DNA of 64,000 bases from an uncultured bacterium (GTDB lineage Bacteria > Patescibacteriota > Saccharimonadia > Saccharimonadales > Saccharimonadaceae). Location of the stretch: assembly GCA_903952435.1 (NCBI GenBank), contig CAJBFN010000002.1, positions 81,507 through 145,506 on the forward strand. The letters run 5' to 3'. Of this stretch, positions 48,939 to 58,906 are shown in pieces; the first letter of the stretch is position 1, and each line of letters begins with the position of its first letter. Under the pieces are notes generated by a model. That model was not told the DNA's origin and did not search any database. It was given only the letters and a program-made list of their open reading frames with translations. The position numbers and the translations under genes were made by a program.

Positions 48939-49013
48939 GGTCTCATCGTCTAACGGTTAGGACACCAGGTTCTCATCCTGGCAATCCGGGTTCGATTCCC
49001 GGTGAGATCACCA
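48939..49013 (+). tRNA. tRNA-Glu(CTC)
   Basis: Acceptor GGTCTCA/TGAGATC, anticodon stem CCAGG/CCTGG with loop TTCTCAT, T arm CCGGG TTCGATT CCCGG, encoded CCA. Confidence 0.95.
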
Positions 49014-49053: not shown

Positions 49054-49224
49054 CGCTCCCGCGGGATCGAATCCGGATGCGTAACGCCTTAAGCGTTACG
49101 CGAATCCGGCGTTCGGTGTAATGAATGAAGCGAAAAAGTGTTTACATTTTTTCGTGAATGAGTGGAAGAGCCAAGCTGAGCTTGGCGATTGACCGGCTGA
49201 TGCCAGTTCTTGACATTGGTAATT

Positions 49225-55869: not shown

Positions 55870-57330
55870 ATGCATCACCACAATTCAAAGCGAAGTAATT
55901 TTATCAAAAGGCTAGTCGTTTATTCTAGTACTACATTTTTTGTGGTGTTGATTGCTGGTTTTGTTATCCTGACCGTTATGGGTTTTAAGTTTGATACAGA
56001 CAGACAGCAGTTTGAGCAATATGCCTTCTTGCAATTTAATTCCGCTCCAACTGGCGCCAGCGTGGCGGTTGATGGAGTTGAAGTTACTGGTAAGACTCCA
56101 AATAAAACATCGGTTCCCGAGGGAAAACACGAAGTTGTAATCTGGCGTGATGGTTTTGAAACTTGGCGCAAGACTTTATATATAAAATCAGGTACCCTTA
56201 CTTGGTTGAATTATATATTAATGGTTCCGACAAAACTTAGTGTCGAATCGGTTGCCGATTATGAAGGGCTGTCAACATCATTAGTGTCTCCTTTAAATAA
56301 ATACATAGTTGTGCAGCAATTTGCTGACAAGCCGTCTTTTGATATAGCTCAGCTTGATATGGATTTGCCAACTTTTAATCAGATTACTATACCTAAAAAA
56401 GATTACAGCGAAGCATATACAACGAGCGTAAAACATAACTTCAAGGTCACTAGTTGGGACCAGGGCGAGCGCTATATATTAATCAAACATAATTATAACG
56501 ACAATACAGAATGGTTAGTTGCTGATTCTCAGGACGAGAACAATACAAAAAATATTACTAAATTATTCGACCTGCAGTTTAGTGATGTTAAATTTTCTGG
56601 CACTGGTGGCAATACATTTTTTGGTCTAGAATCTGGTAATATTCGTAAACTAGATACCAAAACCGAAACGGTCTCAAAATTATTAGTTACAAAGGTAAAG
56701 CAATTTAGCCTTTATAGTCAAAATATAATCACCTATATTGGCGACGGTGATAATGGTGGTCGTTTAGTTGGGCTTTATCGTGACGGTGACGAAAAACCAT
56801 ATGTGGTTAAAGTCATCTCGTCAAGCAACGCTAATAGTTTACAGGTTGCTTCATCTCGTTATTTTAATGAGGATTATATAGCAATTGCCGATGGTAAAAA
56901 TGTTGATATTTTAAGTGGTAATTACAGCACTTTGTTGTTTAGCGACTTATCAAGTATAAAGTCGGTCAAAACTTTTGATGTTGCTGGTGATGTTTTGAAC
57001 TTAAGCTTTAGCCCTAGCGGTCAGTATTTACTGGCTCAGTCTGGAGCTAATTTTACTAGTTATGATCTAGAATATAAAAATACTGTTCTTTCGACTGTTG
57101 ATACCACAGGTTCGGCTTCGCCATTGAAATGGTTAAATAATAGTTATTTTTGGTCTGATAATGGCAGTAATCTTAATATTCGTGAATTTGATGGTGCAAA
57201 TCCTAGGCTTATAAATTCGGTTGTTGTTGGTCAGGATGTTGCCTTAACCAAGAGCGGCAAGTTTTTGTATAGCTTAAATAAGTCAACTAATGGTTATCAA
57301 CTTCAGCGCGTAAAGATGACCTTACTCTAA
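55870..57330 (+). CDS. PEGA-domain membrane protein with propeller-like region
   Basis: SAPTGASVAVDGVEVTGKTPNKTSVPEGKHEVVIWRDGFETWRK. Confidence 0.85.
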   Translation: MHHHNSKRSNFIKRLVVYSSTTFFVVLIAGFVILTVMGFKFDTDRQQFEQYAFLQFNSAPTGASVAVDGVEVTGKTPNKTSVPEGKHEVVIWRDGFETWRKTLYIKSGTLTWLNYILMVPTKLSVESVADYEGLSTSLVSPLNKYIVVQQFADKPSFDIAQLDMDLPTFNQITIPKKDYSEAYTTSVKHNFKVTSWDQGERYILIKHNYNDNTEWLVADSQDENNTKNITKLFDLQFSDVKFSGTGGNTFFGLESGNIRKLDTKTETVSKLLVTKVKQFSLYSQNIITYIGDGDNGGRLVGLYRDGDEKPYVVKVISSSNANSLQVASSRYFNEDYIAIADGKNVDILSGNYSTLLFSDLSSIKSVKTFDVAGDVLNLSFSPSGQYLLAQSGANFTSYDLEYKNTVLSTVDTTGSASPLKWLNNSYFWSDNGSNLNIREFDGANPRLINSVVVGQDVALTKSGKFLYSLNKSTNGYQLQRVKMTLL

Positions 57331-58481
57331 TTTCTGATACCAAATAATCTTTCAAGTATCGTTGGCTGTTTGCCGGGTATTGACGTGTTATTATTGACCG
57401 AGTCTGCTGCGGGTGCCGCTTTTGATGCATTTGGATCTGGGCTGATTTGCTCGGCGATAACTAGTAACCTGCTGTTGGCTGTTCCGACTGGCACACAAGT
57501 AAGTAATGTTAAGATTGGTTTGCTTGTCGCGTACACTAGGCTGTTTACGTCATCTGGGCCGACAACTTGTTTTTCGGTTACGATATATGTATATCTTTTC
57601 GAGTTGTAATTGGCATAGATTGTATCGCCTTTATTTAACTTTTCCAGTTGTGAAAATATAAATTTGTAATCACCTGATCCGAAAAGGTCGCTGCTACTGT
57701 GTCCGGCCAGCACAGTGTTGCCTATCTCGCCTGGGTGGCTGCTGGCACCTGGAACGGCAAAATGCGCAACTCCGTTATCCATTGCGCTCATCTGTGAGTC
57801 ATAGTCGTTGCCTATATCGTAATGGACTGGTACGTCAACGTTAATCTTAGGGATTATAATTTTAGGTTCTGAGCTAACTGTGATGTCGGTGTTTGGGTCA
57901 ATAATTATATTTTGAGGGTTAATATAACCAGGGCTGACATAGGCCATTACACTTCCGATTAGTAATGTATTGTATTGCAAGAATAAAAACAATAACATAG
58001 CGATTATGCCGGAAAATATTGGCATAAAATGACGACTTTTGCGAACCTCGTTGGCTGATTCTTTTATTTTACTAAATAGTTTTTGTTTTAATTTATATTC
58101 AGCTTCTTCTTTGGCGGTTTTTTCGTCAATTAGGCTTTCTTTGGCTTTTTGTAAGTGGTGAGAATAATAGCCTTCATAATATTTTTGATAATAATTTTGC
58201 CAAGCGCTGTGATATTTATTCCAGTCGTTAGTTGTTGGTTGGTCTACGTGGTCGGTATGAACTCTGTCATAAGGGTTGATTGGTTTAGATTGGTCGGATG
58301 GCTGGTCTGTAATGGTGTTTTTTTCGGCAAATAAAGTATCAATTTTGTTTCGTAGTATTCTAGAGGCTGCCTCGCGGTTTGCTGGATTTTCATCTGAATC
58401 TGTTTTTGGCGCAACCGCCATAGGACGTTGCTGTAATAGCGGCGTCCCACCTAGGCTGCTACTGATTTCGTCTGGTTTCAT
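57327..58481 (-). CDS. Sortase
   Basis: TVLAGHSS and LTLLTCVPVGTANSRLLV (TLxTC) motifs, one TM. Confidence 0.88.
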   Translation of the reverse strand: MKPDEISSSLGGTPLLQQRPMAVAPKTDSDENPANREAASRILRNKIDTLFAEKNTITDQPSDQSKPINPYDRVHTDHVDQPTTNDWNKYHSAWQNYYQKYYEGYYSHHLQKAKESLIDEKTAKEEAEYKLKQKLFSKIKESANEVRKSRHFMPIFSGIIAMLLFLFLQYNTLLIGSVMAYVSPGYINPQNIIIDPNTDITVSSEPKIIIPKINVDVPVHYDIGNDYDSQMSAMDNGVAHFAVPGASSHPGEIGNTVLAGHSSSDLFGSGDYKFIFSQLEKLNKGDTIYANYNSKRYTYIVTEKQVVGPDDVNSLVYATSKPILTLLTCVPVGTANSRLLVIAEQISPDPNASKAAPAADSVNNNTSIPGKQPTILERLFGIRN

Positions 58482-58577: not shown

Positions 58578-58906
58578 GCCGCGGTGGTGGAATGGTAGAT
58601 AAAATTACTTTGTAATTTTAAAATTAAAATATATTTGTTGGGCGAATGGCGGAATGGTAGACGCGCTAGACTCAAAATCTTGTTCTCGTAAGGGAGTGGG
58701 GGTTCAAGTCCCCCTTTGCCCACCAAATATAATTTAATTTTCGCCAGGGCGCACCGTAAACGGTGCCGTTAAGACGAACAAAATCTTGTGTCCGTAAGGA
58801 TGTACCGTGTCGTGTAGGAGGAGTTTTTCAAATGTGCTTGCACAATTTTAAAAATGACGACGGAAAAGCGAAACGAAGTGGAGCGCTAGTCCGGTTCGCG
58901 GTACCA
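58578..58906 (+). pseudogene. Interrupted/shattered tRNA-Leu-like locus (pieces 58578-58599, ~58771-58807, 58888-58906)
   Basis: GCCGCGGTGGTGGAATGGTAGA at 5' end; CAAAATCTTGTGTCCGTAAGGATGTACCG middle; AGTCCGGTTCGCGGTACCA 3' end; GCCGCGG pairs with TCGCGGT (two G-U). Confidence 0.55.
58640..58725 (+). tRNA. tRNA-Leu(CAA)
   Basis: Acceptor GGGCGAA/TTTGCCC, anticodon loop CTCAAAA, long variable arm, T arm GGGGG TTCAAGT CCCCC, encoded CCA; one T-T mismatch in anticodon stem. Confidence 0.9.

Follow-up and report, generated by a model that had tools for sequence, protein, structure and literature searches.

Folded inserts in the loops of extra tRNA copies in one order of Saccharibacteria, and a tRNA-Leu(CAA) gene nested in a second tRNA-Leu

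Several described systems resemble in part the inserts that we report here. The T-loop is a classic integrase target, and integrative elements and phages with a tRNA attB share with our inserts the use of the T-loop or 3' half as a target, the restored intact tRNA and the direct repeat of the tRNA 3' end. Unlike these, the unit that we see has no integrase or cargo, uses all three loops and includes the T-arm in inverted copy. Where a group I intron has entered a tRNA gene, a structured, RNA-like insert likewise lies in a tRNA loop, whereas our inserts are about 80–90 nt, have no Rfam intron match, have lost target bases, have an intact tRNA beside them and also use the D and T loops. MITE and REP-type elements (IS200/IS605 Y1 transposases) are, like the inserts, short, hairpin-rich and non-coding and have no long target duplication, but the inserts are largely confined to tRNA copies and show no clear correlation with Y1 transposase genes. 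Eukaryotic tRNA-proximal retrotransposons such as Ty3 and the Dictyostelium TREs find a safe site by keeping a fixed distance to tRNA genes. The inserts share the fixed distance, but they are bacterial, tiny, located inside tRNA copies and uncorrelated with reverse transcriptase. Permuted or two-piece tmRNA and split tRNAs likewise have tRNA pieces lying apart in the genome, whereas at the locus in our window (the whole 64-kb stretch of DNA that was analysed) the tmRNA score of 13.5 bits falls short of the cut-off of 47 and no functional product is predicted.

ARAGORN and Rfam found two tRNA genes in the window, tRNA-Glu(CTC) at 48939–49013 and tRNA-Leu(CAA) at 58640–58725. The latter sits intact within the D-loop of a second, broken tRNA-Leu spanning 58578–58906, which we call the shell. 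The first-pass annotation had proposed this nesting, and it was confirmed by both programs and by a match of the shell's 5' end to congener G012. All shell pieces lie on the forward strand. The first is the 22-mer GCCGCGGTGGTGGAATGGTAGA (58578–58599; acceptor 5' strand and D arm), which is the exact 5' end of the intact tRNA-Leu(CAA) in G012 and is unique within the window, the runner-up on either strand having 7 mismatches. The downstream pieces CAAAATCTTGTGTCCGTAAGGATGTACCG (58779–58807; 3' side of the anticodon loop, variable arm and T-stem 5' strand) and GTCCGGTTCGCGGTACCA (58889–58906; 3' end with CCA) align to the same kind of tRNA, and a comparison with sister genomes, which the annotation had suggested, found the uninterrupted counterparts in G011 and G012. 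The acceptor strand of the 3' piece pairs with the upstream GCCGCGG at 7 of 7 positions, two of them G-U as read from the sequence, and the T-loop bases GTTCA are absent; on both points the annotation was right. It had also described two interrupting segments and two downstream pieces. These are all present, but three loops are interrupted (D, anticodon and T), since a hairpin in the anticodon loop had been overlooked, as had a further shell piece, CGCCAG (58742–58747; D-stem 3' and anticodon-stem 5'), which has the same letters in the intact type-2 tRNA-Leu of G011.

The D-loop interruption is made of the complete inner tRNA and flanking inverted repeats. Its left part (58600–58639, forward) holds a small A/T hairpin and then the left arm of the repeat, as judged from sequence and fold, and G006, G016, G017 and G041 are similarly laid out. 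The inner tRNA-Leu(CAA) follows (58640–58725, forward; type 1, GGGCGA..; Rfam RF00005, 57 bits), and then the right arm (58726–58741, forward), which pairs with the arm at 58621–58639. In the anticodon stem of the inner gene (CTAGA/TCTTG) two U face each other as a mismatch, at a position that is paired in most relatives. The anticodon loop is interrupted at 58748–58778 (forward) by a hairpin, GCACCG-TAAA-CGGTGC, with GTTAAGACGAA. Comparable hairpins occur at the same place in G041, G017, G006 and G007, and an automatic fold of 5 sequences gave no consensus for them. The T-loop holds an insert of about 80 nt (58807–58888, forward), which begins 81 nt after the inner tRNA-Leu.

We searched the window and the related loci with 4227 Rfam models, and only tRNA was above the gathering threshold, with nothing of note on the inserts. 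The annotation had allowed for a known RNA family covering 58578–58906, and tRNA was all that Rfam found there. For the group I and group II intron cores (RF00028 and RF00029) there was no match at gathering over the window, none locally up to E 10 and none in the related loci.

The T-loop segment had been noted as 80 nt of interrupting DNA. It is there, but its sequence is not arbitrary, as it is one copy of a structured family that recurs and that we call family B. Members are about 80 nt long and have one long covarying hairpin, with double changes in 10 of 13 predicted pairs, and a purine-rich 3' end. We built a covariance model (R2) without both window copies, and in the 64-kb window it gave two significant matches, one after each tRNA gene, and no other below E 0.9. 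The T-loop insert scored 31.2 bits (E 3.9e-5), and a second copy, 95 nt downstream of tRNA-Glu (49109–49190, forward), scored 63.2 bits (E 2.6e-12), although these E-values and those of R1 below are rough because the models were quickly calibrated. Since R2 was made without the window copies and still matches them, this is an independent test that the T-loop segment is a real family member. The model also finds other family B copies beside tRNAs in the window's own genome. Family B occurs in both orientations at palindromic TTCGAA T-loops (L254, L255 and the tRNA-Ser(GCT) of the window's genome), the reverse one being seen at T-loops of tRNA-Ser.

Relatives also carry a second type of insert, family A, which is about 90 nt long with three covarying hairpins; an alignment of 41 copies has 32 base pairs, 16 of which show compensatory double changes. 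A scan of 84,980 genomes with its motif GCAAGGAAACNTTCCGATG, taken from T-loop inserts of several relatives, gave 52 matching stretches, almost all of them in Saccharibacteria or in MAGs without a genus label. We left out as chance 6 matches that had no tRNA context or insert structure, one of them on a viral contig. The family A covariance model (R1) has no match in the window. It matches 24 of 28 genus members, with up to 21 copies per genome (21 in G016 and 14 in G004), and in a phylum-wide draw it matched 2 of 96 genomes, both from the window's own order. Among the genomes searched, family A is seen in one order only. An intact tRNA is no more than 250 nt away from 73 of the 92 distinct matches; all 73 are on the strand of that tRNA and 55 are downstream of it, while most of the remaining matches lie in tRNA fragments. 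Family A is found in the T-loops of many tRNAs, in the anticodon loops of Pro and Glu and in the D-loops of Ser, Pro and Gln. In a single tRNA-Glu the D, anticodon and T loops all have inserts. T-loop inserts replace 1–2 bases, and target bases are missing at the family A T-loop inserts too. Two family A inserts from two genomes are surrounded by similar sequence that is not a tRNA, GGGTGACGTTCGNCGGGGT .. GCAGGACCCGTGCC (L122:7240-7400 and L143:1670-1830). The host sequence around them has no Rfam match and may itself be a structured RNA. In G007 a family A insert lies 105 nt upstream of tRNA-Cys (L186:2471-2561), in the GACGTTCGGCGGGGT context also seen at L143.

Typically the inserts are part of a common unit: an intact tRNA, a terminator hairpin that starts from the CCA, a copy of the tRNA 3' half in inverted orientation, which is most evident over the T-arm, the 5' half of a T-arm, the insert, and the 3' half of that T-arm, often ending in CCA. 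The layout is sense-antisense-sense. The tRNA-Glu(CTC) of the window (48939–49013, forward) has this usual arrangement downstream, with an inverted copy of its T-arm at 49063–49078 (forward), after the terminator hairpin. Of the 39 tRNA genes in the window's own genome, 18 are followed by such a unit. The insert is from family B in 12 cases and from family A in 6, of which those at Val-TAC, Leu-TAG and downstream of Gln-CTG were assigned by eye. No unit was recognisable at the tRNA-Ala, tRNA-Ile, tRNA-Thr and tRNA-Asn genes and several others of this genome (L003, L010, L013). The two families occupy the same kind of place beside tRNAs. In the same genome ARAGORN called a tRNA-Asp with anticodon ATC (L030:1498-1573), which has an unusual A34 and atypical downstream sequence.

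The insert content at the same tRNA varies between relatives. At tRNA-His in 25 genus members we saw empty sites, filled sites and remnants, and the filled ones had different family A subtypes. Units are found in tandem in G004 and G021, and at L136 the third hairpin of one family A insert has been entered precisely by a second one, whereas another genome, at L122, shows this target uninterrupted. Inserts at different tRNAs, within or between genomes, can be 95–98% identical, and the nearest neighbour of an insert was in the same genome 17 times when 3.2 were expected. Presence and absence at orthologous tRNAs, nesting, tandems, near-identical inserts and the two orientations of family B argue that the inserts are probably mobile. 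The use of the D, anticodon and T loops made an RNA reverse-splicing model attractive, but we dropped it since family B can lie either way round in palindromic T-loops, which favours a process at the DNA level.

We used the protein gene beside the locus (57327–58481, reverse strand), which lies outside the element and adjoins tRNA-Leu(CAA) in genus members, as a synteny anchor across the genus. At the anchored place there was a tRNA-Leu(CAA) in the genus members examined, and by its sequence it was of one of two types, type 1 with GGGCG.. or type 2 with GCCGCG... In G006 and G017 a type-1 shell encloses an intact type 2, while in the window and in G041, which is from another family, a type-2 shell encloses type 1, and G007 has had more than one round of nesting. 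On a tree of the neighbouring protein from 25 genomes the type has switched at least 7 times, 5 of these forced by well-supported branches. The sister of G017 on this tree is G003, and the sisters of G006 are G019 and G025, all of which have type 1. Between the G006 shell and the intact G025 gene the alignment is close, and the immediate flanks are conserved. The shells of G006 and G017 thus match the tRNA resident in their sister species, which shows that the shell there is the former resident and the inner gene its replacement. We infer that in the window, too, the inner tRNA-Leu(CAA) replaced the shell tRNA-Leu.

Our main reading, to which we give a probability of about 0.5, is that the locus is one site of a genome-wide set of small, non-coding, structured mobile inserts that lodge in loops, most often the T-loop, of tRNA copies that are surplus or have been displaced, within a single order of Saccharibacteria. 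The first-pass annotation had named an insertion hot spot among its alternatives and was correct in this. The resident gene at the Leu(CAA) locus has been opened in its D, anticodon and T loops and holds a foreign intact tRNA-Leu in the D-loop, so the cell keeps a working gene while the old one turns into a shell; this is the direction in the two relatives above and presumably also in the window. We believe that the inserts may move as DNA with the help of a trans-acting protein, which would recognise tRNA-gene stem-loops with GG-NN-C or the palindromic TTCGAA in the loop. Insertion would leave no long target duplication, and the tRNA would survive through an intact copy that is duplicated or brought in with the event. 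One point against mobile inserts is that the replacement of 1–2 bases by T-loop inserts fits no simple mechanism. It is possible, and we propose it tentatively, that this is an undescribed class of non-coding mobile element that recognises the stem-loops of tRNA genes, colonises nearly half of the tRNA genes of its host and drives the repeated replacement of an essential tRNA gene by nesting.

The very regular spacing, together with the conservation of the inverted T-arm, has the look of a functional arrangement and also counts against mobile inserts. The downstream unit could be a regulatory or processing element of tRNA transcripts, in which the inverted T-arm acts like a switch, pairing either with the T-arm of the intact tRNA or with the two outer halves, and the insert as a sensor or protein-binding domain. 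In 48 family A downstream units the distance from tRNA end to insert stays within 66–99 nt (median 80 nt), and the inverted copy pairs with the intact T-arm at a mean of -25.9 kcal/mol and with the outer T-arm at -20.2, against -14.3 when shuffled, although, with the insert interrupting the outer T-arm, these energies do not tell which partner matters. Strong covariation in both families and the presence of the unit at nearly half of the tRNAs of the window's genome fit a function as well. However, orthologous tRNA-His genes differ, some having the unit and many lacking it, the unrelated families A and B share the same place, B occurs in both orientations, copies are nested and in tandem, and the terminator hairpin lies between tRNA and unit. 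We think that a functional RNA is rather unlikely.

The inserts could instead be attachment-site arms that remain from phages or larger elements whose tyrosine recombinase integrates them at tRNA T-loops. In addition to the known use of the T-loop by integrases, direct repeats of the tRNA 3' end flank the unit of about 200 bp, with an intact tRNA on one side, and the tandem units resemble circle integration. On the other hand, most insert-bearing genomes have a single Phage_integrase match, a Xer-like recombinase (G016 and G004 have one each), neither family's motif has a real match on any viral contig (the one family A match being chance), D-loop and anticodon-loop sites occur, and leftover arms would not be expected to have internal hairpins that covary from one tRNA to the next, as they do here at many tRNAs. 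We read the neighbouring ORFs of L113 and L149 by eye for a larger element and found no recombinase gene. Reverse transcriptase is patchy and does not track the inserts, being absent from G016 and G004, and Y1 transposase is present in 17 of 28 genus genomes and also absent from G004. In the genus genomes examined, none of transposase, integrase and reverse transcriptase clearly tracked the inserts, which also counts against our main reading, and we found no dedicated enzyme. Such integration remnants seem to us quite improbable.

There is very little to be said for the simple decay of a duplicated tRNA that received insertions by chance. Decay is evident in some shells, and the annotation's "decayed gene" fits the fate of the shell, but not its cause, as the sister species show that a shell of this kind is the earlier resident tRNA after three of its loops had been filled. 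The inserts fall into structured, covarying families that recur in one position next to many tRNAs, and the independent R2 matches at other tRNAs largely refute this reading. Least credible is that the shell transcript is spliced into a second functional tRNA-Leu, as an intron-bearing, split or permuted tRNA: most shell stems remain and the interruptions lie in loops, but we rejected the self-splicing and split-tRNA readings, which the annotation had raised, because excision could not restore a tRNA whose T-loop would be without GTTCA, there is no group I, group II or permuted-tRNA family match over the region, a joined mature shell tRNA is unlikely with an intact tRNA-Leu(CAA) inside, and G017, G021 and G023 already have a degraded shell.

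Returning to the inserts, many tRNA genes in these ultrasmall Saccharibacteria adjoin a damaged extra tRNA copy with a folded insert in a loop, and the insert families are absent from the databases searched. We consider them new because they lack the decisive features of known systems for which we looked and because a search of the open-licence literature found no relevant publication on such inserts. For annotation there is a warning that tRNA-like fragments in such genomes are not simple pseudogenes. The inserts also raise the question of what might move structured elements of 80–90 nt in genomes that mostly carry one housekeeping recombinase. If our reading is true, tRNA genes in a large and mostly uncultivated group of bacteria have an abundant inhabitant that has not been described, and these organisms would have a route for exchanging essential tRNA genes without loss of function.
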